Assembly: GCA_030836185.1 (NCBI GenBank) | Contig: JAURQH010000042.1 | Coordinates: forward strand, 1 to 64,000 | Reading direction: 5' to 3' | DNA: 64,000 nt | Origin: Planctomycetota bacterium | GTDB lineage: Bacteria; Planctomycetota; Planctomycetia; Planctomycetales; Planctomycetaceae | In this document: positions 5,828 through 49,941 of the stretch, piece after piece | How the letters are laid out: the number at the start of each line of letters is the position of its first letter | Position numbering within the stretch: the first letter of the stretch is position 1 | Notes under the pieces: model-generated | Database searches by the model: none | What the model was told of the DNA's origin: nothing | The model's input: the letters and a program-made list of their open reading frames with translations, nothing else | Position numbers and translations under genes: made by a program

Positions 5828-7660
5828 ATGTCATACCGTAGCGTCAAACGAATTCTCGGCGAAACTAGCTTGGAGCGGAAATGCCGTTTCCTGTTGGGAG
5901 CCGGTATGCTGATTCTGATCGCATCCAGTTTCTGGTTCTACTCGTATTTGAATTCCGAATTAATTTACGAACAGAACTTACGTCTGGCTCGAACCATTAC
6001 AGGTCAGGAACTGGCACATAAACATTGGGTTTGGGCACAGTCACCAGAGTCGAGCGAGTCCCGCGACAAAACGACTGACTCCATCGAAACACTCTGGCAA
6101 GATACACGTCCTGACTCTCTCGAAGATCTTGATGTCTATCTTGTCAGCGCTTCACAGAACCCCAGTGATGCCGCCTTAAAGCTGCGTCCGTTGGGTGAAG
6201 ATGATTATCAAATTCTGGAATTACTTCGGAAACGTCAAAAGAAATATTTGGAAAAGGATTCGAATAAAGTCCCCGAATATGTTGACTACAATGAAGAAGA
6301 TGAACTGTTTCGATTCTATCAGTCCGTCACAATTAAAAAATCGTGTGTGAGTTGTCATCACCATCAGAAAGCCGGTCATCAACCGGGTGAAATGGTCGCG
6401 ATGACATCGCTGGAAGTTCCACTAAATGTGATGGAAGGCGATCTTGAATTGCAACGAGCATTTCTGATTGCGACAGCGTTGGTGACCGCCTTTTTAGCCA
6501 TGCTTGGCGCCTATGCCATCGTTCGCTACGTGATTGTCAAACCGGTCCTGCATCTGAAAGATGTCTCGGATGAAATTGCACGTGGAAATCTTGATTTGCG
6601 TGCCGACATTCGTACGGGAGACGAGTTTGAAGAATTGAGCCACGCATTTAATCGCATGCTGAGGCATCTCGTCACGGTACAGGATGAACTGAAGAACGTG
6701 AACCATGATCTGGACGGTAAAGTCGACGAACTGGCTCATGTGAATTTGCAGCTTTACGAAATGAACAATCTTAAGGATGAGTTCCTGGCCACAATGAGTC
6801 ATGAGTTGCGGACACCGCTCAACAGCATTTTGGGATTCAGTGATGTATTGGCCGAAGCCTCGAACCTCGAAGAGAAGCAACTTCGTTATGTCTCGAATAT
6901 TCAATCTTCGGGACGACAACTGATGGCCCTTATCAACGATATTCTCGATCTGGCCAAAATTGAAAGCGGCAAGATGGAGCTGCAGTTGGTGCAATTCGAT
7001 CTTGCTGACTTTATTGAGCGGCAAGTCGGAACAATGCAGCCAATCGCGGACCGCAAAAATATTGAGATGACCTACCATATCGAGCCCACTCTGCTGGAAG
7101 TCTTCCAGGACCGTGGAAAGCTTCAGCAAGTTCTCAATAATTTGCTCTCAAATGCGTTGAAATTCACTCCTGAAGGAGGCCGGGTTTCGGTTTGGGCAAA
7201 GCCTTACGAGAGTGATTTGATGGAAATCACCGTCGTCGATACGGGAGTAGGAATTCGTCTCGAAGATCAGGAGCAGGTCTTTGAAAAATTCCGACAAGGT
7301 CAAGGAGTTCCCGGACAGCAAAATGCCATCACGCGCGAACATGGCGGTACCGGCTTGGGGCTTTCCATTGTCAAAGAGCTCTCGCGACTTCTGGGTGGAG
7401 AGATCTTTTTACAAAGTGAATTTGGAAAAGGAAGTACGTTCGGGATTCGCATTCCCATCCATCACGAACCGGATTCCGACGAATCATTCTCTGATCCACT
7501 CTCCAAATACTCCGGCATCAATCGACTCCGTCCCGATCAACAGGAACTAGGAGATTCCTTTGCCGCAACCGTCGAAGCGGCTGAGCGATCTGAGTCCGAA
7601 TCAAACAGCAACATTGCTGAAGCTCCCGAGGATTCGACAGAAGAGAATCAACCCTTGTAG
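5828..7660 (+). CDS. Membrane sensor histidine kinase with periplasmic CxxCH (DUF3365-like) domain
   Basis: A 610-residue transmembrane kinase. TM1 is at about 22-42; a periplasmic sensor at about 43-210 holds C173-V-S-C-H177 followed by more His; TM2 is at about 211-237. HAMP follows (238-290), then a coiled coil, HisKA with phospho-acceptor H325 (SHELRTPLN), and HATPase_c (NLLSNALKF near 437, DTGVGI, GGTGLGLSIV). The C-terminal 45 residues are acidic and disordered. The CxxCH in a pre-HAMP domain resembles DUF3365/Tll0287-type c-heme sensors, which respond to redox state or small ligands; that role is inference. No response regulator is adjacent, so the partner is probably encoded elsewhere. 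Confidence 0.92.
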   Translation: MSYRSVKRILGETSLERKCRFLLGAGMLILIASSFWFYSYLNSELIYEQNLRLARTITGQELAHKHWVWAQSPESSESRDKTTDSIETLWQDTRPDSLEDLDVYLVSASQNPSDAALKLRPLGEDDYQILELLRKRQKKYLEKDSNKVPEYVDYNEEDELFRFYQSVTIKKSCVSCHHHQKAGHQPGEMVAMTSLEVPLNVMEGDLELQRAFLIATALVTAFLAMLGAYAIVRYVIVKPVLHLKDVSDEIARGNLDLRADIRTGDEFEELSHAFNRMLRHLVTVQDELKNVNHDLDGKVDELAHVNLQLYEMNNLKDEFLATMSHELRTPLNSILGFSDVLAEASNLEEKQLRYVSNIQSSGRQLMALINDILDLAKIESGKMELQLVQFDLADFIERQVGTMQPIADRKNIEMTYHIEPTLLEVFQDRGKLQQVLNNLLSNALKFTPEGGRVSVWAKPYESDLMEITVVDTGVGIRLEDQEQVFEKFRQGQGVPGQQNAITREHGGTGLGLSIVKELSRLLGGEIFLQSEFGKGSTFGIRIPIHHEPDSDESFSDPLSKYSGINRLRPDQQELGDSFAATVEAAERSESESNSNIAEAPEDSTEENQPL

Positions 7661-9728: not shown

Positions 9729-10649
9729 TTACTTCATTGCACTAATATCAAGCGGTTTTATGGCGACTTTTTGGCCCTCATCCTTGATCGCGGTCGCATT
9801 TGACTGGCTTCGTTCCTGACTGGCAACGAATACGCGAGCCGTCAGGTCGATGAGTTCTTTCTTACGAATGGCCAGTACGCCTTCCATTTTACCGGTGAGA
9901 CCTTCGACCCAATCAGGCTGATGCATCATCGCGAGCGACATCATCTGTACAAACAGGCTCACCTCGCGAAAGTTCCGGTCGATGATCAAACTGCTGAATG
10001 GCTTGGTTAATTTGGCAGCCGTCCCAAAACCTTGATTCGGAAAAGCGACAAACATATCAACGCGGTGGGTCACAAACGTCCGGCCACTTCGATCAGACGA
10101 ATAGACACTGACCAGATGCAAAATGGCTTTGGAACGAATTTTTCGTTTCAAAATCGGACTCGTCATCTCACCGTGGCAGAGCACAACCTGATGATTCTCA
10201 TCACGATGCAAGACTTCGAGGACTCCTAAAGTTCCGTCCCCGCTGTCAGCTTCATAATCCTGAATCCCGGTTTGCTTCATTTGATATTGTGACACATTAA
10301 GGGCTCGCCAGATCGAGACCACCACATCGGGGTGTTGCACGAAGTATCGATACACACTGGGATCGACTTCAAAGCTCAGCGTCGGCAAGCGTCGGAAAAG
10401 GTCCGTCGAATTGACAATCGCACGGACTTCCTGTTGTTGGACTGCGTTTAACTTTGTGAATGGAATCTGTCGAATCGCTTCCTCGCGATCATCCTTAGAA
10501 GAACTCCCTTCCTGAGCCACTTTGACACGTGAAAGTAATTCCTCTGCAGATTTTGGATTGACGGCCCGCACTGTCTCTCCCACCTGGAGAATGAACAGTC
10601 CAGTCGTTAGCAGCATCAAAGATGATTGTCTTAGAGATCGTGCGCGCAT
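9729..10649 (-). CDS. Hypothetical exported protein
   Basis: 306 residues with an N-terminal signal peptide (SSLMLLTTGLFILQ, cleavage near residue 29). The mature part is mixed alpha/beta and lacks cysteine pairs or obvious catalytic motifs. One stretch, HQVVLCHGEMTSPILKRK, may be a strand-turn region. The middle (PDVVVSIWRALNVSQYQMKQTG) and the repeated VTHRVDMFVAFPNQGFG style recall planctomycete exported proteins of unknown function. Monocistronic; 97 bases separate its stop from yceH. No function is assigned. Confidence 0.7.
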   Translation of the reverse strand: MRARSLRQSSLMLLTTGLFILQVGETVRAVNPKSAEELLSRVKVAQEGSSSKDDREEAIRQIPFTKLNAVQQQEVRAIVNSTDLFRRLPTLSFEVDPSVYRYFVQHPDVVVSIWRALNVSQYQMKQTGIQDYEADSGDGTLGVLEVLHRDENHQVVLCHGEMTSPILKRKIRSKAILHLVSVYSSDRSGRTFVTHRVDMFVAFPNQGFGTAAKLTKPFSSLIIDRNFREVSLFVQMMSLAMMHQPDWVEGLTGKMEGVLAIRKKELIDLTARVFVASQERSQSNATAIKDEGQKVAIKPLDISAMK

Positions 10650-11013: not shown

Positions 11014-12582
11014 TTAGTTCTTTGGCAATCGATTGAGAGTGTAATAGGCATCGGGATGCAAAAGGGTCTCTCCATCACGATCTCGAATTCCTCGGCACCA
11101 CAATTCATGCACAAAGAGTTCGCGCAATCCTCGAACTTTCAGTTGTACACGATACCCGTCCTCGGAGACTGTCGCCGATTCAATCACCGGGGATTGTTTC
11201 AGGATTTCGTCGCTGCCGTAGGTAGAATGATATTGGTACGTGTAGCTGCTCATCTCGTAGGCTGCGGGGAGTGATGCTTTCTGGAGATCAACCGGCTTTG
11301 TGAAGACGAGTTCAAACCCATCCGAAATTGCGTGCATTTCCTGAATTTCAAAGGGAGTCTTTCCGGTCCAGACGAGTCGCTGTAATCCGTACGACGCCGT
11401 CCCCAGGCTGCTCCAACCTCGATTGGTCAATCCCGCGAAAAGACTTCCATCTGTTCCTTGTGCCAATCGCAGGACGGCTGACGCTAATCCTGAACGAAAT
11501 GGAAAGCAGGCCCCCTGATACTCTCCACCAATTTTTTCCAGGTAGACGCGATTGATGCCAGCTTGAGTAAACTCACCCAAAAAAAACTGTCCCGCAAACG
11601 GACCGAACTTTCCTTTGCTCTCATCCAGCATGATATCTGTGGCCGACTGACCAATTTTTTTGTAAGGCAGCCAAACTGCCGGGGGCTTCAAAGCCGAGAA
11701 CTTTTTGAGTGCCTGCGGGAATGGAAGGCCATTCGGTATTTCTGTGATCCCCTTGATGGGCGAATCGGGTTCATTCATTGATGCCAAAGAGTCTGGATGA
11801 TGAAAGAACGCTCCCCGCCGCATATGATGCAGCGTGTTGGTTCCCACCCAGTTGCCTTGCTGATCGGTGTAAAACATGTCCCCGGCAGTATTCGCCCCCA
11901 GACCACTCGGCGATCGCATCCCTGCACACATGGGAATCATCTTTCCCTCGGGAGTCACCATCATTCCCCAACCACGCCAAAGTCCTTGACGAACTTTCAA
12001 TGTCGGTTCGGTAATGGTGCGATCAAGTTGATCTCCTTTCAGACCGAGACCCGTGTTTAATGTCAGCCAGAAATTCCCATCGCCATCCAATTCGGGACCG
12101 TAGGCATATTCGTGATAGTGGCCGGTCACTCCCCAGCCCTTCGCGACTGTCAAATATTCATCAGCGACCATGTCTCCATCGGTATCTCGAATTCGAGTCA
12201 ACTCACTGCGCTGAACCGTATAAAACGCATCCCCTTTTTTGATCAGACCGAGTGGTTCGTGAAGTGCCGTTGCAAATTGATGGTAGGTCACATTCTTCGG
12301 AGGATCATCATAGACGCCGTCCAAAATCCAGATTTCACCTTTACGAATCGTGACGGCAACTTTCTTATCATCAAGAACTGCGATGCCACTGACTTCGAGT
12401 GCCAACCCGTCAGGAGCCGGTTTCCAGTTCTTCGAGCGAGAGTCGGTTTGCGCTTGAGACGTGACGACTGAGATCAACTTGTAATAGTCACTCTCTTCGG
12501 CAGCATAAGTCGTGGAGGCTCCGTGTGAGCACATGGCCCATAACAGCACAAGAAGAAAGCCTCGCTTGATAGACATTACCAT
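11014..12582 (-). CDS. Secreted beta-propeller (PVC-type dehydrogenase-like) protein
   Basis: 522 residues with a signal peptide (FLLVLLWAMCSHGASTTYA). The mature part is a six-bladed-propeller type sequence related to PQQ-sugar-dehydrogenase-like and 'membrane-bound dehydrogenase' domains abundant in planctomycetes: PDGLALEVSGIAVLDD, GEIWILDG, TRIRDTDGDMVADEY, GMRSPSGLGANTAGDMFYTDQQGNW. The DTDGDM segment is a calcium-loop-like motif. The last 130 residues form a separate beta domain. The start overlaps the end of the pentaheme gene by 7 bases (12576-12582), so the two are translated together and the cytochrome is a likely electron acceptor. Substrate unknown. Confidence 0.82.
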   Translation of the reverse strand: MVMSIKRGFLLVLLWAMCSHGASTTYAAEESDYYKLISVVTSQAQTDSRSKNWKPAPDGLALEVSGIAVLDDKKVAVTIRKGEIWILDGVYDDPPKNVTYHQFATALHEPLGLIKKGDAFYTVQRSELTRIRDTDGDMVADEYLTVAKGWGVTGHYHEYAYGPELDGDGNFWLTLNTGLGLKGDQLDRTITEPTLKVRQGLWRGWGMMVTPEGKMIPMCAGMRSPSGLGANTAGDMFYTDQQGNWVGTNTLHHMRRGAFFHHPDSLASMNEPDSPIKGITEIPNGLPFPQALKKFSALKPPAVWLPYKKIGQSATDIMLDESKGKFGPFAGQFFLGEFTQAGINRVYLEKIGGEYQGACFPFRSGLASAVLRLAQGTDGSLFAGLTNRGWSSLGTASYGLQRLVWTGKTPFEIQEMHAISDGFELVFTKPVDLQKASLPAAYEMSSYTYQYHSTYGSDEILKQSPVIESATVSEDGYRVQLKVRGLRELFVHELWCRGIRDRDGETLLHPDAYYTLNRLPKN

Positions 12583-14939
12583 TGGTACTCAACCTCAATC
12601 ACAAGCGGTTTCTTGGTGGTCAGTGGCAACAAAGAGAGGTTCCACCCATCTTTGGTCGGCGTGACTTTCGATGTCGTCTTCAAGTGGGCTTTGAGTCCCG
12701 CGTCCGATGTGATCGTCGTGGGATCGACATGCTCGGCGTCTGGCAATAAATGCAGATTGAGTGGATGTATTCCGCGGGATTGTCGTTGAGTCCGCATTGT
12801 CCAGATACGCCGAAGGTGTCCGGTCTTCGTCGGAAATATCTGTTCCTCAACCTCGAACCCTGCCAGACGAAAAAGGAAGGTGGGGCGACCTGATTTTTCG
12901 AGGCGATATCCGCGAAAAACGGGTTTAGCTTTTTCGAGACTTAATGTTGGACCAGTCGGCAGTGCGTAATGAAATTCCCCCAATGGATTCGCGGGAGGAG
13001 CGAATCGTTCGTACCAGGTTCCTTGGGCATCAAGAAACCGCCCCGTCCATATTTCCGCCAGTCGTACTTGTTCGGCATCATAGGCAAAGTGAAGCTTCTC
13101 GGGATAGCCGACCGCGATGGCATGAGTCCCCGCTTCGTCCATGAATGTTCGTAAGACAATCGGTTTTTCTTTGGGAACGAGTTCAAAAGTTTGCGAGCGT
13201 GCCGTGATGATTTTTTCCGGCAATGGCTGATTCTTGAGATCCTTTAGATAGGCCCACAAAGAAGCGATCTGCAAATCGACATTACCATCCAGTAGTTGTG
13301 AATTCGAGCTTTTCCCATTCGGGAAGAAGGTCGGCATTCGAGTACGCGCTTTAACGGCTCCTGGATTGAACAAAAACTTTTTGAACCACTCAGGATGTAT
13401 GCGAGTGGTTACATCACTCAAATCAACTCCCACAACACCCGGTAACGCCTCGCCACCCACCGGATGGCATTGCACACAACCGGTATCGAGCAACATTCGT
13501 CCTGAAGTAGCAAGGTTCTTGCTTTGACCGAAGACATCTTGTTCGCTTTGTTTCTGATAATCGTCAACAGCGGCGAATTGCTCAGGCAGCGATTTCACCT
13601 GAGCCGAAGGGAATTGAGGCATTCTTGCCGAGAGATGCGGCCGTACAACACCTGTTCCATCGAAAACTATTTTCAGCCAGCTTTGAGTCAGCTTCTGTCC
13701 GACGCCGGTTAAAGTGGGCGGAATACGTCCTTCATCACCGAGATCGATGTGCCGAACCGTCTCCAAATATGACTTGCGGTTTCGACCAACACCACCACGT
13801 TCATTCCTCTCGTGGCAGCCATAACAATTAAGTTGCAACATGCGCAGGTCGAGTTTCAAATGCTGCTCTAACAAATCATCGTTTTGTAGAGTTTGAACGG
13901 CAGCTTTCAGCGAGGCGGCTTGTTTCTCGTTCAATGGGTAACGAGGCAGCTTCGCAGTGGGATTGCCAACACAGGTTTGCGTTGACTCCCAATTGAGCTC
14001 CGAGAGTTTCTTGGCAGATTTTTTCGAGGCAATTCCTTTGGCCTGATGACAACTGGAACACTGCAATTCTGCAAAGAGTTGACGTCCTTTTTCGATCAAG
14101 TCTTGACTAAAATCAGATCTCTTATTTTGCGAATTTCCAGGACTTTTGGCCTGCAAGTAAGCTGCGATGTGAGAGGCTTCCATGGGAGCCAATTTGAAAT
14201 TCGGCATCCGTCCTGCAGGACGATATTTTTCAGGACTCAACAAGAAGTAGGTCAGTGACTTCGAAGAATATTTCTTTCCCAGTTCGCCATGAGGGACGGA
14301 TTTTACGGGGCGAACATGTTGAGAGAGCCCGAGTTCTTTTAGCTCATCATCATCGAGTTGCTCAATCATTTGGTCGAGTGGGGTTGGTTTGTATTCTGCC
14401 GTTTCATAATTTTGATCGGGTTCATGGCAGGCAATGCAACCAATGCGATGATAAAGCCCTTTCCCTAATTCAGGATCCCCCTTCTCCCAGAATTCAAAGG
14501 GTACAGGACTCAAACCCCCCGCTTTGATTTCTGGGAACTCTTGTTGCTGATTCATCAGAAATGCAGTGAGAGCGACGACCGCATCTTGTTTTTTTGTCTC
14601 AGTCAAACCCGCCAACATGTCGGGCATGGTGGTCCCGGGTTTTATATCGTGAGGGGCAGCCAGATAACTGCGCAACCAATCAACATTCACGCGACTCCCG
14701 ACACCCGTCAAGTCTGGACCACCTTTGGGGTGTAACTCTTCAGAATCAGTCACATGACAAGCCGTGCAGTTTAGCTCAGTCAGTAGTAGCTGTCCGGCCA
14801 GTGATTCAGAGATCGAGTGAGAAGCCGCAAATCGATCATACCCGGAAACAAACGGCTCAGCCGAGTGTGCAATGCCGGGCAGAAAAACACACACTCCACC
14901 GAGGAGTATCGTAAATCGCAATGTCATCCGAATTTTCAT
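12576..14939 (-). CDS. Pentaheme c-type cytochrome, exported
   Basis: 787 residues with a signal peptide (FTILLGGVCVFLPGIAHSA). Five CxxCH heme motifs start at C58 (CTACH), C168 (CIACH), C294 (CSSCH), C372 (CYGCH) and C488 (CVQCH). Candidate Met ligands follow in several domains (TTMPDML, GRMPNFK, ARMPQF, TRMPTFF), so it reads as tandem cytochrome c domains. Residues about 570-787 are a heme-free beta region ending VIEVEYQW. It overlaps the DJ-1 gene by 4 bases upstream and the propeller gene by 7 bases downstream. It probably passes electrons in the periplasm from oxidation by the propeller protein. The role is inferred from context. Confidence 0.9.
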   Translation of the reverse strand: MKIRMTLRFTILLGGVCVFLPGIAHSAEPFVSGYDRFAASHSISESLAGQLLLTELNCTACHVTDSEELHPKGGPDLTGVGSRVNVDWLRSYLAAPHDIKPGTTMPDMLAGLTETKKQDAVVALTAFLMNQQQEFPEIKAGGLSPVPFEFWEKGDPELGKGLYHRIGCIACHEPDQNYETAEYKPTPLDQMIEQLDDDELKELGLSQHVRPVKSVPHGELGKKYSSKSLTYFLLSPEKYRPAGRMPNFKLAPMEASHIAAYLQAKSPGNSQNKRSDFSQDLIEKGRQLFAELQCSSCHQAKGIASKKSAKKLSELNWESTQTCVGNPTAKLPRYPLNEKQAASLKAAVQTLQNDDLLEQHLKLDLRMLQLNCYGCHERNERGGVGRNRKSYLETVRHIDLGDEGRIPPTLTGVGQKLTQSWLKIVFDGTGVVRPHLSARMPQFPSAQVKSLPEQFAAVDDYQKQSEQDVFGQSKNLATSGRMLLDTGCVQCHPVGGEALPGVVGVDLSDVTTRIHPEWFKKFLFNPGAVKARTRMPTFFPNGKSSNSQLLDGNVDLQIASLWAYLKDLKNQPLPEKIITARSQTFELVPKEKPIVLRTFMDEAGTHAIAVGYPEKLHFAYDAEQVRLAEIWTGRFLDAQGTWYERFAPPANPLGEFHYALPTGPTLSLEKAKPVFRGYRLEKSGRPTFLFRLAGFEVEEQIFPTKTGHLRRIWTMRTQRQSRGIHPLNLHLLPDAEHVDPTTITSDAGLKAHLKTTSKVTPTKDGWNLSLLPLTTKKPLVIEVEYQW

Positions 14940-15514
14940 ACTTGGGTACTCGCCGCATTTTCACGAGCTGCTTCCAGTAATTGAATCCACGGCCCGACAT
15001 AATAACCGTTATCGTGGAACGTCCGTCCGCTGACGAGGTTTCCATCGATCACACAGGGCTCATCCACAAAGACACCGCCGCAAACTTCCAGATCAAATTT
15101 GCACTTGGCGACTGTCGCCATGCGGCGGCCTTCCACACAACCGGCGTACGCGGGGATTTCAACTCCGTGACAGACACTGGCGACGGGTTTATTTTGAGCA
15201 AAGAAATATTTTGTGATGCGAACTAAATCTTCATCATAACGAATGTATTCCGGCGCTCGTCCTCCCGAGAACATGATGCCCGCATATTCGTCTTCTTTCA
15301 CTTCGGAGAACGGCACATCACAATTGAGCGTGTAACCTTCCCACTCTTTCGTAATCGTCCAGCCCGGTTTTTGTTCGTGGAGAACCAATTGATAAAGTCG
15401 TTTTTCGGGCGCTGTTACGACCGGCTCAAAACCGGCTTCTTGCAAGCGATAATACGGGTACATGGTGTCGAGCGTTTCCGTCGCATCGCCGATCACAATA
15501 AGCACTTTTTGCAT
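14936..15514 (-). CDS. DJ-1/PfpI family protein
   Basis: A 192-residue class I glutamine-amidotransferase-like protein. The nucleophile elbow is V-C115-H116-G-V-E, with an acidic residue near E13 (DATETLD) positioned as in DJ-1/PfpI proteins. The GIMFSGGRAPEYIR loop is typical of the PfpI/YhbO branch. The C-terminal part (GGVFVDEPCVIDGNLVSGRTF) matches the family's final strand region. Family members are deglycases, chaperones or peptidases, so the substrate cannot be read off. It lies between an exported TIM-barrel protein and a pentaheme cytochrome, overlapping the latter by 4 bases, yet has no signal peptide and should be cytoplasmic. Confidence 0.9.
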   Translation of the reverse strand: MQKVLIVIGDATETLDTMYPYYRLQEAGFEPVVTAPEKRLYQLVLHEQKPGWTITKEWEGYTLNCDVPFSEVKEDEYAGIMFSGGRAPEYIRYDEDLVRITKYFFAQNKPVASVCHGVEIPAYAGCVEGRRMATVAKCKFDLEVCGGVFVDEPCVIDGNLVSGRTFHDNGYYVGPWIQLLEAARENAASTQV

Positions 15515-15538
15515 GATGAATTCCTGGGAGTCTAATTT

Positions 15539-16474
15539 TTATCTTGGAGTAATACGGTTGGCCAGATAGTTTCGGGATCGATTGATTTCCGCAGTGACCT
15601 CCGCCGTCGTTTCGAGAATTGGAATTCCTCGCGGAACGGGGTGCATGAAAATTTCTGTCCAACCGGCATATTTGATGTCTTGTAATGCTTCGATCAACGG
15701 CGCGAAGTCGAGTTCTCCACGACCGGGCATCTGTAGAAGTTCCTGTTCTTTAGGAAGTTTTTTGGAACAGCTCATGCCGTGCTGCCAGGCATAGAACATT
15801 TCTATCGAATCGCCCAAGTCTCGAATCAACTGACTGAGTAGCGTTGTGTCTTGAGGCAAATGATAGGGAGCAAAGGCAATTCCCAAGTGTTTTGAAGGCC
15901 GAAGTTCTGCCAACCATTTCAACGAGTCGGGAGAATCGATCAAATTGTTGCCATGATTCTCGATAGCGATTGTGACACCGGTTTCCTCAGCGACTGCGAG
16001 GTGAGGTTTCATCTGTTCGACAAATTTTCCGACTGCCGATTTGAGTTCTTTTCCTGTCAACCCTACTGGTCCTTTCCCACCCGCAACAATCGTCTTGCAA
16101 CCTAGCCGTTGAGCCAGTTTCATTTCGTTCTGTAAACCAAACGGTCCCAACTTGTACTGCGTGATACAGCCCAGCGTGACATCATGACTTTGTAAGAACT
16201 CTGCAAAGTTGTCTTCTCCCATTGCCTCCAATTGCTCACGCTGATTGCCGTGAACTTTGGGCCAAATGTCTATTGCCGTTGCCCCTATCTTACTGGCCTC
16301 AGGAACAATCTCTTTCAGATCTGCATATCCATACATACACGACCCGAGAATGTACTTGAACTGAAAGTCCGAGGAGTCCTCTGCAAAGAGGTCGGGCCTT
16401 GCTAAACAAAGGGCGCTGACCCCAGACAGAGTGGCGCAGAAATCACGTCGAGTCAAAATAGAATTCAGATTCAT
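15539..16474 (-). CDS. Tat-exported sugar phosphate isomerase/epimerase-like TIM barrel
   Basis: A 311-residue AP-endonuclease-2/xylose-isomerase-like barrel. The N-terminus carries a twin-arginine signal (LTRRDFCATLSGVSALCLA). Barrel strands include IGATAIDIWP, LGCKTIVAGGKGP and VTIAIENHGNN; E and H in IENHG and H in FMHPVP are probable metal ligands. The family isomerises or cleaves sugars and polyols; planctomycetes have many exported versions of unknown substrate. It is the first gene of the four-gene run ending at 11014, 24 bases before the DJ-1 gene. Confidence 0.88.
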   Translation of the reverse strand: MNLNSILTRRDFCATLSGVSALCLARPDLFAEDSSDFQFKYILGSCMYGYADLKEIVPEASKIGATAIDIWPKVHGNQREQLEAMGEDNFAEFLQSHDVTLGCITQYKLGPFGLQNEMKLAQRLGCKTIVAGGKGPVGLTGKELKSAVGKFVEQMKPHLAVAEETGVTIAIENHGNNLIDSPDSLKWLAELRPSKHLGIAFAPYHLPQDTTLLSQLIRDLGDSIEMFYAWQHGMSCSKKLPKEQELLQMPGRGELDFAPLIEALQDIKYAGWTEIFMHPVPRGIPILETTAEVTAEINRSRNYLANRITPR

Positions 16475-16589: not shown

Positions 16590-17303
16590 TTACTGGTTCA
16601 TACCCGGCGCATTGCTACAAACAGTCAGTTTTGAGATGGAAATTTTACCCCCAAAGCAAACATCGATATCCCGTCCGGGAGTTAGAGGGCGTCGCTGGTA
16701 ATCGCTGCGATAGACCAATCCCTCCTCCTTCAATTCACACTTAAATTGATAATGCTCGACATCGACTGGACAAAAAACGATCTCCGGGAAACCGTCTCGC
16801 ATTTCAATATCTGGAAAATTCACATTCCAGAACTCGCCCGGTTGTAACGGTTCGCTGAATAATCGTTCGAGGACAGGTTTCGTCCAGCCTGCGATACGGC
16901 TCCAATCAAAGGAAGAGTTCATACCGTTTCGATATTGTGAAAACGCAATACCACGTTTTCCCATCAATGCCGCTTCACGAATTGCGGCAACTGTCCCTGA
17001 CATAAACACATCACAACCAAGATTCCCGCCCGCATTGACTCCAGAAAGAACCCACTCCGTTTTAGGAGCAAGATGTGCCAGACCAATTCTTGCACAATCT
17101 GCTGGCGTCCCTCCAATGGCGTATCGTAAGTTCTCTTTCGCATCGATGGGAATCGGACCGTCTTCACTGATTCTATGGCCACTCCCCGAATGCTGACGGT
17201 CGGGAGCAACCACAATCACTTCGCCAAATTCCACAGCCACATGGCGCAGAGCTTCGAGGCCAGGGGCTTCGATTCCATCATCATTAGTGATCAGAAGGGA
17301 CAT
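16590..17303 (-). CDS. surE: 5'/3'-nucleotidase SurE
   Basis: A metal-dependent nucleoside-monophosphate phosphatase of 237 residues. It starts MSLLITNDDG, with D8 and D9 as metal ligands, and carries the APDRQHSGSGH loop (Ser and His near 40-44) and VNAGGNLG, the conserved Asn region. The ATG at 17303 puts the metal motif at the correct distance; an upstream in-frame ATG at 17366 would add 21 unusual residues. It follows the alpha/beta hydrolase gene by 71 bases on the same strand and may be cotranscribed. Cytoplasmic. Confidence 0.94.
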   Translation of the reverse strand: MSLLITNDDGIEAPGLEALRHVAVEFGEVIVVAPDRQHSGSGHRISEDGPIPIDAKENLRYAIGGTPADCARIGLAHLAPKTEWVLSGVNAGGNLGCDVFMSGTVAAIREAALMGKRGIAFSQYRNGMNSSFDWSRIAGWTKPVLERLFSEPLQPGEFWNVNFPDIEMRDGFPEIVFCPVDVEHYQFKCELKEEGLVYRSDYQRRPLTPGRDIDVCFGGKISISKLTVCSNAPGMNQ

Positions 17304-17374
17304 GCTGGTACTCGAAGATTGACGAAGACATAAATCATATCGAGTACAGATCGAAATCAATCGCAAAGAAGCGA

Positions 17375-18411: not shown

Positions 18412-19689
18412 TCAGGCACATTCGTTGAAAATCAAAGTAATGTTTTGACCGCCGAAACCAAAGCTGTTGGAAAGTGCCCTTTGCACTTTCGCGTCACGTG
18501 CTTCGTTTGGGATGTAATCCAGATCGCAATCGGGATCGGGAGTGGAGTAGTTAATGGTCGGTGGAAGAACTCCGTCTCGCATCGCCAACAGGCAAATGAT
18601 CGCCTCAACACTTCCCGCAGCGGCAATCAGATGTCCCATCATGCTCTTAATGCTCGAAACCGGTGTATTCGCGGCATCGGCTCCCAGAGATTTTTTCACA
18701 GCCATGGTTTCCACTCGGTCATTGACCGAAGTGCTTGTTCCATGAGCATTGATGTAATCGATCTGATCGGTGTTGAGGCCAGCGTCTTTTAAGGCCATTT
18801 CGATACAGGCGACTGCACCACGGCCTTCAGGATGGATATCAGTGATTCGATAGGCATCAGCCGTCGAGCCGAATCCAACGAGTTCGCCGTAGATTTTTGC
18901 ACCTCGGCTTTTGGCCCGTTCGTATTCTTCGAGGATGACCATACCGGCACCTTCACCCAAAACGAATCCATCCCGATTTTTATCGAATGGACGAGATGCC
19001 GTTTCGGGAGAATCATTCCGAGTGGACAAGGCTGTCAACAGATTGAAACCGGTCACACCGAATGGATGAATCATCGTGTGGGCACCACCGGAAAGCATGA
19101 CTTCTGCATCGCCACGACGAATAATTTCAGTCGCTTCTCCAATCGCCTGACTCGATGCCGCACATGCCGTCAAACAGTTAAGGTTCGGGCCTTGAGCGTT
19201 AAACAAACCGGCGAGGTGTCCGGCTGGCATATTCGGTTCTTGTTCGAGTTCAGTTTGAGGATGCAAATTCTCCAAACCGTACTTCGTAAACTTGGCAAGA
19301 TCGACTTCGCCATTCTGCTGAGCTTGGGCAATCATGTTCATGAACATCAGGAAATCCTGTTGTCCTTCACCTGCCCCGAGATAGACACCAAACTGAGCGG
19401 GATCAACCGAGCCCATGATGCCTGAGTCGGCGACTGCTTGGGAAGCCGCACCAATTGCAAAACGAATGTTACGGCCCGCGAATTCAAATGCTTCCGGGTC
19501 GTCCACATACTGACTGAAGTCATAACCTTTGACTTCTGCCGCAAATTTGGTCGGAAAATTAGAGGCGTCGAAATGACTGATTGGCCCCACACCGCTTTTA
19601 CCAGCGCGAATGGATGCCCACATCGTTTCGACGTCATTGCCTATCGGCGTCACACAACCGATACCGGTCACTACCACTCGACGTTTCAT
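18412..19689 (-). CDS. fabF: Beta-ketoacyl-ACP synthase II-like (FabF)
   Basis: 425 residues, a thiolase-fold condensing enzyme that extends acyl-ACP with malonyl-ACP. It begins MKRRVVVTGIGCVTPIG; the active-site cysteine is C176 in TACAASS, with the two histidines in NAHGTSTSVND and KSMMGHLIAAAG; FGFGGQN is near the C-terminus. The stretch at about 105-155 (QQDFLMFMNMIAQAQQNG and beyond) is longer than in E. coli FabF, and TACAASS replaces TACATG, so its chain-length or substrate preference may differ. It is the last synthase gene of a minus-strand cluster with two dehydratases, FabG and an ACP. Confidence 0.92.
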   Translation of the reverse strand: MKRRVVVTGIGCVTPIGNDVETMWASIRAGKSGVGPISHFDASNFPTKFAAEVKGYDFSQYVDDPEAFEFAGRNIRFAIGAASQAVADSGIMGSVDPAQFGVYLGAGEGQQDFLMFMNMIAQAQQNGEVDLAKFTKYGLENLHPQTELEQEPNMPAGHLAGLFNAQGPNLNCLTACAASSQAIGEATEIIRRGDAEVMLSGGAHTMIHPFGVTGFNLLTALSTRNDSPETASRPFDKNRDGFVLGEGAGMVILEEYERAKSRGAKIYGELVGFGSTADAYRITDIHPEGRGAVACIEMALKDAGLNTDQIDYINAHGTSTSVNDRVETMAVKKSLGADAANTPVSSIKSMMGHLIAAAGSVEAIICLLAMRDGVLPPTINYSTPDPDCDLDYIPNEARDAKVQRALSNSFGFGGQNITLIFNECA

Positions 19690-19858
19690 TGCCCAGTTTC
19701 TTTATGTATCCCATTGCCGAACAGTTCCCCAACCGTTCTCTCAACAGGAGCCTATAGTCTGATGGGATCAAGTATAGCTAAACGCCCCCCCTATGAAAAC
19801 AGGTTCACGGGAGTTTCATCTGTGGAGAAATAGCAATTCGATGCGAAAATGACTACTG

Positions 19859-20347
19859 TTACAGTTTTTCCGCTCCGTCTCCAGCTTTCCCAACTTCAAG
19901 AATCCCGAGTAAATTCATCGAGAAAACGAAGTTTTTCTGGTCAATCGCTCCCAGAGTGGGATCTGAGGGATCTAAGTGGGCGAACACAATTTCTGCCTCA
20001 GCCACCAATCGCTCACCAACATGAGCGGTACACTCGACAGTTCCCCCCTCGTCCCGCTCATCCAATAGACGAGCGGTGTAGACGAGAGAATCGCCGGGAG
20101 TCGCCCAGCTATGAAACGTCACTTTGGGAACTTTGGCAAGAATGACGGCATATTTGAAGTCATTCTTTTCTCCCAGAAGAATTCCCCCCGTCTGAGCCAG
20201 CCCCTCGATCATTAACGAACTAGGCATGACTGAGAAGCCCGGAAAATGATCGTGCATATGCTCTTCCGAAAGGCTGACATTTTTGACAGCCTTGGCGTAA
20301 GAACCACTTTCAAATTCGATGAATCGATCGATCCAGAACCAGCGCAT
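19859..20347 (-). CDS. FabZ/FabA-like 3-hydroxyacyl-ACP dehydratase, atypical
   Basis: 162-residue single hot-dog domain. The dehydratase motif has H34 in DHFPGF and E48 in MIEGLAQTGG, the usual His/Glu pair. Where FabZ reads VMPGVL this protein has VMPSSL, so the conserved Gly after Pro is replaced by Ser. It resembles the second dehydratase (21701-22195) in its first 50 residues. It lies between the ACP (48 bases) and fabF (169 bases). Either it is a catalytic partner for a special chain, or one of the two has become a structural or regulatory copy; sequence alone does not decide. Confidence 0.85.
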   Translation of the reverse strand: MRWFWIDRFIEFESGSYAKAVKNVSLSEEHMHDHFPGFSVMPSSLMIEGLAQTGGILLGEKNDFKYAVILAKVPKVTFHSWATPGDSLVYTARLLDERDEGGTVECTAHVGERLVAEAEIVFAHLDPSDPTLGAIDQKNFVFSMNLLGILEVGKAGDGAEKL

Positions 20348-20394
20348 CGGGAAAACTCACTCTTTTTGAAGACGACAATCACTGATCGGGGAAC

Positions 20395-20784
20395 TTACCC
20401 GTTCAGTTTTTGGTCGAGGAAACTCACCATCATACGCACGGTGAACAGGTCTGCGATGTTTTCAACGGCCGGATTTTCGGCCAACTTGTCGACATCAGCG
20501 TGTGGCATTTTTTCTCGCAACTGCGCGATTCCACTCTCGGTCACTTTTCCATCCTGCACGAACGAGGAATCCGCGCTCGCCAGATTCTCGGGAAATAACT
20601 CTCCGCGAGGAATTTTGATGTCGAAGCCTTTTTCGAGGCGGAAAAGAATGTCCAAGAAGTCGATGGACTCTGCTCCCAGGTCTCCCTGAAGAGTTGCATC
20701 CATCGTGACTTCATCATCGTCGACACCAAGAGCGTCTTCGAGTGTTTCCTGTACAACCTTAAAAATCTCATCTTGCGTGGGCAT
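20395..20784 (-). CDS. Enlarged acyl carrier protein
   Basis: 129 residues against about 78 for standard ACPs. The phosphopantetheine site is S40 in LGAESIDFLDI. The first 60 residues and the last 30 (NIADLFTVRMMVSFLDQKL) carry the helices of the carrier fold; an insertion of roughly 45 residues (about 62-105) lies between them. AGGAGA nine bases before the ATG at 20784 sets the start. It sits between fabG and a dehydratase and should carry intermediates for this cluster. The insertion may dock the cluster's own enzymes rather than housekeeping FAS; that is inference. Confidence 0.88.
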   Translation of the reverse strand: MPTQDEIFKVVQETLEDALGVDDDEVTMDATLQGDLGAESIDFLDILFRLEKGFDIKIPRGELFPENLASADSSFVQDGKVTESGIAQLREKMPHADVDKLAENPAVENIADLFTVRMMVSFLDQKLNG

Positions 20785-20877
20785 CTGCAAAATCTCCTGA
20801 AGGTTTCCCAAACGTGTTTCGCTCACCTGCCGATTGCAGCAAATACGAGTTGCCACAATCGCCGAACAGGTTTTGAA

Positions 20878-21627
20878 TTAAATACCGCCGAGGGTTAATC
20901 CCCCGTCAACTTCGATGACTTGTCCCGTGATGTAACTTGCGTCAGGGCTGGCCAAAAAGACGGCCGTACTCGCGATGTCTTCAGGTTTCCCCAAACGGCG
21001 AAGTGCAATCGCTTTCTTAATTTCCCCTTCAGCCGCGTTACGGACGGCTTCCGTCATGTCTGTTTCAATAAAGCCCGGCGCAATGGCGTTGACCGTAATG
21101 TTTCGACGGCCAACTTCCGCAGCCAGGCATTTTGTAAATCCATTGATGCCGCCTTTAGAGGCCGCATAGTTGGTTTGTCCCTGGTTCCCCATCTCAGAGG
21201 CAACACTGGACATGTTGATAATTCGTCCGCTGCGTTGTGACATCATCGGACGCATTACGCTTTGTGTGAAATTGTAAACCGAGTTGAGGTTCGTATCGAT
21301 GACGGTACACCAATCGTCTTCATCCATCGTCGCCAGCAATCCGTCACGAATGACTCCCGCGTTATTCACGAGAATATCAATCCGTTCCCACTTTTCGAGA
21401 ACTTCATCGACGGCTTTTTGTGCCGCTTCTTTGGACTTGACATCTGCCTGAATCGCAATCACTTCGCCACTGGCAGAGAGTTCGCTGACAATGGCATCGG
21501 CAGCATCTTTCGACGAATTGTAGACAAACGCAACCTTGGCACCTTCTTTGACGAATGCTTCGACAATTCCTTTACCAATGCCACGACTTCCACCGGTAAC
21601 CAATGCGACTTGACCTTCGAGTCTCAT
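20878..21627 (-). CDS. fabG: 3-oxoacyl-ACP reductase (FabG, SDR)
   Basis: A 249-residue classical SDR that reduces 3-ketoacyl-ACP with NADPH. The cofactor motif is TGGSRGIGKG, NNAGV follows at about 88, and the catalytic Ser-Tyr-Lys is in MSSVASEMGN and Y-A-A-S-K. The C-terminal ITGQVIEVDGGLTLGG is typical. The start at 21627 (MRLEGQVALVTGG) is preferred over an upstream in-frame ATG at 21672. It lies between the second dehydratase (73 bases) and the ACP (93 bases). Cytoplasmic. Confidence 0.95.
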   Translation of the reverse strand: MRLEGQVALVTGGSRGIGKGIVEAFVKEGAKVAFVYNSSKDAADAIVSELSASGEVIAIQADVKSKEAAQKAVDEVLEKWERIDILVNNAGVIRDGLLATMDEDDWCTVIDTNLNSVYNFTQSVMRPMMSQRSGRIINMSSVASEMGNQGQTNYAASKGGINGFTKCLAAEVGRRNITVNAIAPGFIETDMTEAVRNAAEGEIKKAIALRRLGKPEDIASTAVFLASPDASYITGQVIEVDGGLTLGGI

Positions 21628-21700
21628 TACTTTGCTCTCAATTTCGTTCAAATATGGTATTGCGTAATTCAACCACTACGTGTGTCAACGACTGCAATGG

Positions 21701-48945: not shown

Positions 48946-49941
48946 ATGAATCAGCCCTTAGTCGATACCTTCGGACGAGCACACGATAACCTGCGTATCA
49001 GTGTGACTGATCGATGCAACATTCGCTGCTTCTACTGCATGCCTGCCGAGAACGTCGAGTTCATGCCCAAATCACATTTACTCACGTTTGAAGAGATTGA
49101 GCGATTTCTCAAGGTTGTCGTGAAACGTGGCGTCAAAAAAATTCGACTCACTGGCGGAGAGCCATTGGTACGTCGGGATCTGCATAAGTTAGTACAACAG
49201 ATCGCACTGATTCCCGAAATCGAAGATATCGGACTGACCACCAACGGTATCTTGCTCGCTGAACAAGCAGAAGGTCTTTATCAGGCCGGGCTTCGCCGCA
49301 TCAACGTCAGCCTGGATGCACTTGATCCTGTCAAATTCAAGGAAGTCACTCGGCGAGAGGGTTATGAAAAGGTGATTGAAGGAATCGAAGCCGCACAACG
49401 AGTGGGCTTCAAACCGGTCAAAGTGAATGCCGTCTCGATCAAGGGACTGACGGAAGATCAAATCATTCCATTTGGTCGCATGGCGCGAGAAACGGGTGTT
49501 GAAATACGCTTTATTGAGTTCATGCCACTTGATGCCGATGCTGCTTGGCAACGTGATAAAGTTTTATTTGCCCGAGACATTATCGACACCTTGGAAGCAG
49601 AATTCGGAACATTGAAACCGCGTGGACAACTCGACCCTTCCGCTCCGGCAACCGACTTTGAATTCGCCGATGGTGTGGGACGCATCGGCATCATCGCGTC
49701 CGTGAGCCAACCATTTTGCGGAAAATGCAATCGTTTCCGTCTGACTGCTGACGGGAAAATCCGCAACTGCCTCTTCTCGCTGGAAGAAACTGACATCAAA
49801 GATTTATTGCGCGGCGATGCCACCGACCAGGAAATTTTAAGTGCCGTTGAGCAATCTATTACCTCCAAAAAGGAAGGCCACGAAATCAATTCTGCACGTT
49901 TCATCCAACCCGACCGCCCCATGTATTCCATTGGCGGGTAG
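48946..49941 (+). CDS. moaA: GTP 3',8-cyclase (MoaA), radical SAM
   Basis: 331 residues. The radical-SAM cluster is C24-X3-C28-X2-C31 (CNIRCFYC); GGEPL follows; the second [4Fe-4S] site is CGKC plus a third Cys 13 residues later (IRNC). The C-terminus ends in SIGG, the GG pair needed with MoaC. It makes the cyclic intermediate for precursor Z from GTP. No moaC is in the window. A TTG at 48928 is a less likely start. The cysteine desulfurase starts 5 bases after the stop. Confidence 0.96.
   Translation: MNQPLVDTFGRAHDNLRISVTDRCNIRCFYCMPAENVEFMPKSHLLTFEEIERFLKVVVKRGVKKIRLTGGEPLVRRDLHKLVQQIALIPEIEDIGLTTNGILLAEQAEGLYQAGLRRINVSLDALDPVKFKEVTRREGYEKVIEGIEAAQRVGFKPVKVNAVSIKGLTEDQIIPFGRMARETGVEIRFIEFMPLDADAAWQRDKVLFARDIIDTLEAEFGTLKPRGQLDPSAPATDFEFADGVGRIGIIASVSQPFCGKCNRFRLTADGKIRNCLFSLEETDIKDLLRGDATDQEILSAVEQSITSKKEGHEINSARFIQPDRPMYSIGG

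Follow-up and report, generated by a model that had tools for sequence, protein, structure and literature searches.

A conserved four-gene cluster in Planctomycetota combines a TIM-barrel and DJ-1 gene pair with a five-heme cytochrome and beta-propeller pair

Described systems and the four-gene locus

Among the described systems closest to the locus considered here are the 3-keto-sugar oxidation-elimination pathways, namely Lgd for levoglucosan, DgpA-DgpB/C, and YcjS-YcjR. A second point of comparison is provided by the soluble PQQ aldose sugar dehydrogenases (Escherichia coli YliI, 2g8s; Streptomyces coelicolor Adh, 3das; and 3a9g), which are propellers with a G-x-R-N/S-P-x-G arginine motif and a nearby histidine. 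In Caulobacter, sugars are reported to be oxidized on the periplasmic side of the membrane by the LacABC lactose 3-dehydrogenase, described along with a DUF1080 hydrolase (PMC9007349), and a planctomycete study has tied DUF1080, now regarded as a 3-keto hydrolase domain, to xanthan use (PMC5673643). Finally, propeller and heme are combined in the TIGR02604-HEAT-CxxCH proteins of the PVC group, one of which, Lac161_ORF7, has been tied to lactose use: the verrucomicrobial cosmid Lac161 reportedly enabled Lac- Sinorhizobium meliloti to grow on lactose (PMC5342196).

The window analyzed here, a stretch of 64,000 nucleotides from a 5.16-Mb draft genome of Planctomycetaceae (97.9% complete), contains four adjacent genes (Table 1), hereafter A (Tat TIM barrel), B (DJ-1/PfpI), C (pentaheme cytochrome), and D (beta-propeller). 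An earlier note on this DNA had placed all four on the minus strand with one short gap and two overlaps, and the open reading frame coordinates confirm this layout; a motif count likewise finds the CxxCH motifs of C at C58, C168, C294, C372, and C488. Export-type N-termini are present on A (twin-arginine), C, and D (the latter two Sec-like, as judged by eye), whereas B has none, as the note had claimed. Its family names also agree with Pfam and NCBIfam, although the TIGR02604 match of D is below that model's own cut-off. The gene spacing suggests that A-B-C-D may be co-transcribed; a promoter scan was uninformative (3 sites versus 6.3 expected, none on the minus strand). We recognized no description of the four-gene set among the open-access papers listed in our searches.

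Table 1. Features of the four-gene cluster and its flanks, in coordinates of the window.
Feature	Position	Strand	Description
306-aa protein	9729-10649	-	Downstream of D; without match in Pfam at 0.1; retained in G257 (73%) and L034 (92%)
D	11014-12582	-	522 aa; exported beta-propeller (DUF7133/TIGR02604-like) with C-terminal strand-rich domain
C/D overlap, 7 bases	12576-12582	-	From ORF coordinates
C	12576-14939	-	787 aa; exported five-heme c-type cytochrome with DUF6797-like C-terminal part
B/C overlap, 4 bases	14936-14939	-	From ORF coordinates
B	14936-15514	-	192 aa; DJ-1/PfpI without signal peptide; E13, C115, H116
A/B gap, 24 bases	15515-15538	-	From ORF coordinates
A	15539-16474	-	311 aa; exported TIM barrel, xylose isomerase-like, AP_endonuc_2; Tat-type N-terminus RRDF
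SurE-type gene	16590-17366	-	Upstream of A; kept in the three genomes of the genus

The cluster shares traits with each of the described systems and departs from each of them. As in the Lgd, Dgp, and Ycj pathways, a Gfo/Idh/MocA oxidoreductase gene lies beside isomerase-fold enzymes in many relatives of A-B, and A has the corresponding fold; unlike in those pathways, A and the inspected Gfo proteins bear Tat-type motifs, and in the window C-D stands at the place of Gfo, with most metal ligands of A apparently changed. D shares the predicted propeller fold of the soluble PQQ aldose sugar dehydrogenases (Z 26.9-29.2) and may retain their arginine motif and nearby histidine, but does not reach the GSDH profile, has an extra C-terminal domain, and is accompanied by a five-heme cytochrome in a genome in which PqqC and PqqE do not exceed their cut-offs. 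Compared with LacABC, a propeller takes the place of the LacA-type enzyme, whereas compared with Lac161_ORF7 the same propeller family and heme are split between two genes, one of them encoding a cytochrome with five heme motifs. We tentatively read A-B-C-D as a periplasmic oxidation operon for a sugar or glycoside, giving this reading a little under an even chance.

Conservation of the gene order and the two modules

The genomes searched are a sample, and relatives were taken among the matches listed. In this set, the order A-B-C-D is found in five genomes from two distant families, namely all 3 examined genomes of the genus (G000, G257, and G477) and 2 members of family f58 (G198 and G220); conservation of the order among planctomycetes was one of the checks that the earlier note had proposed. 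The nearest named relative found, the Planctomycetaceae MAG L034, has a contig identical to one of G477. In the latter genome, B is split by a contig end: its first 22 residues lie on the same contig as A (87%), and its remaining part lies with C and D on another. Between the window and G477, dN is 0.035-0.088 and dS 0.60-0.73 for B, C, and D; in the comparison with G257, dS is saturated.

Within the genus, conservation of the order is weak evidence, because the flanking genes are kept as well: A is preceded by SurE in the window (gap 115), in G257 (70%), and in G477 (88%), and the gene for the 306-aa protein is also retained (Table 1). By contrast, G198 and G220 belong to the same phylum but lie outside the class, and the identical order at their diverged loci (B 76-80% identical to that of the window, A 46-53%, D 52-55%, and C 34-35%) is beyond chance. 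The cluster is real and conserved across two distant families. At these 2 loci, no SurE was seen near A in a search at E 1e-5, which places it outside the unit common to both families, although in the window it could be co-transcribed with A. Among the 9 f58 genomes, 4 carry B at 74% identity or more: C-D follows in G198 and G220, A-B is present without C-D in G476, and the contig of G475 ends after B. Three further loci (L036; L181 in G346; L182 in G445) have B-C-D without A.

Elsewhere in the window, a cluster of fatty-acid type (18412-21672, minus strand) is located further upstream, with a ketoacyl synthase recognized by Pfam and an acyl carrier and a reductase by eye. A histidine kinase (5828-7660, plus strand) with a weak, below-cut-off Tll0287-like match and a CVSCH motif is perhaps a heme-bearing sensor kinase.

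The cluster consists of two separable modules, A-B and C-D, which are mostly found apart. C-D is an old pair, present in Planctomycetota and Verrucomicrobiota (as judged by record titles): in 51 of 58 loci examined, D comes after C in the same orientation, the other 7 comprising 3 cut by contig ends, 1 without D (L058), 1 with a weak C match, and 2 with no C match. In the window's own family, C-D is kept with other neighbors, e.g., in G048, G069, G181, G227, and G238. Trees were built for D (51 rows) and for C (55 rows); too-short rows were dropped by coverage, L037 was left out as the same locus as L081, and the cut loci L057 and L062 were left out of the C tree. In both, the 8 B-linked C-D pairs group together on one side, with the ThuA-linked pairs opposite; finer placement is unsure due to long branches, including those of G198 and G220.

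Of 53 C ORFs, 10 have a ThuA-like gene in their vicinity (9 of these 10 served as profile seeds, and L037 and L081 represent the same locus twice); 2 of them were examined with Pfam ThuA. DJ-1 and ThuA belong to a common fold class, and the ThuA-linked pairs form a separate clade, but at least 4 of 6 inspected ThuA N-termini look exported, whereas B does not, so we do not press the idea that DJ-1 replaced a ThuA-type neighbor of C-D. Beside one C-D-ThuA cluster, a gene (L046:5152-7686) encodes a protein with deiodinase-like, EF-hand, and carboxymuconolactone decarboxylase parts, and in L051, L055, and L056, C-D adjoins a longer propeller gene with one CxxCH.

The usual partners of B emerge from a scan of 135 loci, 75 of which carry B at 65% identity or more (69-95%). 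Within 6 kb of B, A is found in 30 of the 75 (on B's strand in 29), Gfo/Idh/MocA at 50% or more in 28, XylR/AraC-type sugar regulators in 24 (19 on B's strand), C in 7, and a 3-keto-disaccharide hydrolase in 3; B thus occurs in many other gene settings, and 32 loci have none of A, Gfo, C, and the hydrolase nearby. The earlier note had regarded DJ-1 as an unusual partner, a view that these counts overturn: both DJ-1 and the TIM barrel have a customary partner gene, which makes the cluster more interpretable than first thought. Representative orders are regulator-Gfo-A-B in f2 (e.g., L151 and L152) and regulator-B-Gfo-PhyH-A-sulfatase in g3 (e.g., L166 and L167). The 4 Gfo N-termini inspected read RRDW, RRTF, or RRDF. 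A 3-keto-disaccharide hydrolase (PF06439) adjoins B in L169, and L163 and L194 have homologues in the vicinity of B.

Of the 31 loci with A-B, including the window, Gfo accompanies the pair in 22 and C-D in 4, never both together, and 5 have neither, 3 of the latter being situated no more than approximately 1.1 kb from the end of a contig; counting G477 would raise the loci with C-D to five. These counts ignore kinship, many of the loci being close kin, and the independent cases of A-B-C-D amount to two lineages. In this pattern, C-D appears to stand in for the NAD-type oxidoreductase of A-B relatives. The genome of the window does contain other Gfo genes (30 matches, the best 49% identical).

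The modular pattern also feeds the principal alternative, in which A-B serves one sugar pathway and C-D another respiratory task, the two modules sharing a transcript without a common substrate. C-D without A-B is the rule, 27 of the 31 A-B loci lack C-D, and B itself stands without A, Gfo, C, or the hydrolase in 32 of its 75 loci; set against this are the overlapping genes, the identical four-gene order in two distant families, and the grouping of the B-linked C-D pairs (8 out of 8) in one part of either tree. On balance, we consider this alternative doubtful, albeit a serious contender. The earlier suggestion of a periplasmic oxidation path for a sugar or aldehyde is thus supported in part: the gene order and the predicted fold of D speak for it, but the cluster is not one fixed system.

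Properties of the encoded proteins

D matches DUF7133 at 27.5 bits (cut-off 27) and TIGR02604 at 41.7 bits (below the cut-off of 122.2). For its AlphaFold2 model (pLDDT 90.2), the top six VIA-align rows are all annotated as sugar/glucose dehydrogenases (rmsd 2.7-3.0 over 286-298 residues), the sixth standing 2.7 Z units above the next row (Z 24.2). In a single profile-profile comparison, YliI with planctomycete GSDH proteins matched D with a probability of 89% and E 2.1e-6, placing GIRNPQG of YliI opposite GMRSPSG of D. H157 and R223 of D are invariant in 31 aligned rows; the arginine is aligned with that of YliI, and the histidine is one residue off in spacing, as judged by eye. Their counterparts in PQQ sugar dehydrogenases would be the catalytic histidine and the PQQ-contacting arginine. 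Conversely, the GSDH profile (PF07995) did not match the window's D at 0.1 and reached just 2 of 31 relatives (E 0.021 at best).

PqqC gave no match over its cut-off in the window's genome, nor any match in the control genomes, and PqqE gave only below-cut-off matches, as it did in all 14 controls. GSDH-type proteins are encoded elsewhere in the genome (7 matches, best E 1.3e-50), so that enzymes of this type may occur here even without PQQ synthesis. Hence, of the previous description of D as PQQ-dehydrogenase-like, the nearest predicted fold is upheld, whereas the PQQ dependence of D is unproven, the PQQ searches having weak controls. The best match of the genome to the PqqE profile (48994-49443, plus strand; 60 versus 381 bits) is probably another radical-SAM protein. 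PDB sequence searches with D were of no use, yielding designed Pizza propellers via one repeat motif, a few propeller-like kinase chains, and single weak matches to cytochrome c4 and an N-acetylglucosaminidase chain.

Alternatively, D could be a glycoside- or lactone-cleaving propeller rather than a dehydrogenase, with C serving another enzyme. Lactonases and SMP-30 are the next folds to D (Z 23-24), the propeller fold being common to lactonases and others at Z 22-24, the SGL profile matches 6 of 31 D relatives, and purified Lac161_ORF7, a TIGR02604-HEAT-cytochrome protein, was reported to hydrolyze lactose (PMC5342196). The lead of the sugar/glucose dehydrogenases in the fold comparison and the steady presence of a five-heme cytochrome next to D argue against this possibility, which we judge quite unlikely. 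The cosmid complementation and the lactose hydrolysis by ORF7 favor a glycoside substrate and also feed the hydrolytic alternative; Lac161 is the one experimental clue that we found for the wider propeller-heme group.

Pfam Cytochrom_C matches C in 4 stretches, and its C-terminal part scores 20.1 bits against DUF6797, below the cut-off of 24.9. Among 55 C-like ORFs, 49 have five CxxCH motifs, 4 have six, and 2 have two; paralogues carry a PA14 insert (L067 and L086) or match DUF6797 above cut-off (L067 and L085). The NCBIfam SoxX equivalog TIGR04485 also matches C, in 2 stretches, at 77.4 bits versus a cut-off of 61. We do not assign C to SoxX and provisionally take the match as one to cytochrome c in general, since SoxX is a short protein, unlike C with its 787 residues and five CxxCH.

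A is an AP_endonuc_2 TIM barrel (Pfam E 3.4e-19), the twin arginine of which (R9 and R10) is invariant in an alignment of 18 relatives; in a 25-row alignment, the most distant row (L114, 40%) shows no such pair and 2 rows are cut at the start. A single-sequence PDB search returned nothing at 0.01. The AlphaFold2 model (pLDDT 89.6) has an isomerase/epimerase fold, nearest to UlaE, IolI (Z 24.3, rmsd 2.8, 254 residues), IolE, and tagatose epimerase, with 3-keto enzymes lower in the list: the 2-hydroxy-3-keto-glucal hydratase 8ro4 (Z 21.4), DgpB-DgpC 7bvr (21.2), and the 3-keto-glucoside 4-epimerase YcjR 6wn6 (20.9). Xylose-isomerase-like enzymes bind metal through four ligands, Glu-Asp-His-Glu. 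In a profile alignment with TM_0416, the conserved E172 of A falls on the first ligand, a Glu, whereas A200 (invariant), Y/Q228, and F276 (invariant) fall on the other three; E274, two residues before F276, is found in most rows, not all. Most ligand positions thus appear to be replaced, and A probably differs from ordinary metal-dependent isomerases. LgdB1, annotated as an isomerase, eliminates 3-keto-levoglucosan and reportedly gave the same product spot with or without Mn2+ (PMC7676230).

B is a DJ-1_PfpI protein (E 1.1e-31 in Pfam), close to PfpI, that looks cytoplasmic from its N-terminus. Its C-H-G (C115, H116) is invariant in 32 of 32 distinct relatives, and the acidic E13 is kept in rows not cut at the start. 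In a carbonyl-stress operon, B would act as deglycase or glyoxalase, with damaged sugars or aldehydes handled by the exported proteins. This reading would suit the retained E13, C115, and H116 and the best PDB relative of B, plant DJ-1D, but is improbable considering those neighbors of B that were identified in other genomes (sugar regulators, Gfo/Idh/MocA, sulfatases, and 3-keto-disaccharide hydrolase); with A nearby in 30 and Gfo in 28 of the 75 loci, sugar-carbonyl metabolism seems likelier for B than a stress add-on.

A possible respiratory outlet for sugar oxidation

We infer each step of the proposed pathway from gene order, protein families, predicted folds, and the module pattern. D, as a propeller of the soluble sugar-dehydrogenase type, would take electrons from the substrate, as suggested by its fold, the retained arginine motif, and the nearby histidine. 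C would accept these electrons and pass them to the respiratory chain, the cytochrome-linked propeller thereby occupying the place of the usual NAD-type oxidoreductase, Gfo/Idh/MocA. The Tat-exported A would then alter the oxidized sugar, probably by beta-elimination, hydration, or epimerization, reactions known for this fold with 3-keto sugars, and B, in the cytoplasm, may act on the reactive carbonyl product after uptake, which is the weakest step.

Several observations weigh against reading the cluster as a sugar oxidation system. The GSDH matches are few and the fold of D is common to lactonases, which speaks against D being a dehydrogenase; neither PqqC nor PqqE exceeds its cut-off; the best folds of A rank above the 3-keto enzymes, and with its metal site apparently changed, A may follow another chemistry. 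Furthermore, B looks cytoplasmic and A, C, and D exported, C-D occurs without A-B in most relatives, and the SoxX match of C, if taken at face value, would suggest sulfur oxidation. That Gfo and C-D exclude each other is drawn from only two A-B-C-D lineages, with C-D lacking in G476 of f58 and other Gfo genes present in the window's genome. We hold as unlikely a more specific form of the sugar oxidation reading, a respiratory keto-sugar oxidation-elimination in which an unusual propeller dehydrogenase with its own five-heme cytochrome replaces the NAD-type Gfo/Idh/MocA, so that every sugar oxidation would deliver its electrons straight to the electron transport chain, the elimination being performed by a Tat-exported TIM barrel that needs no metal.

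On this evidence, the cluster represents no new kind of system but known modules in a new combination. Heme-and-propeller genes without an assigned function are numerous in Planctomycetota and Verrucomicrobiota, and the cluster ties one such pair to a pair of sugar-chemistry genes. It also offers a small, testable entry, with four soluble proteins and a short list of substrates. If C-D is indeed the electron outlet of a periplasmic sugar oxidation, a function would be on offer for the wider C-D family.
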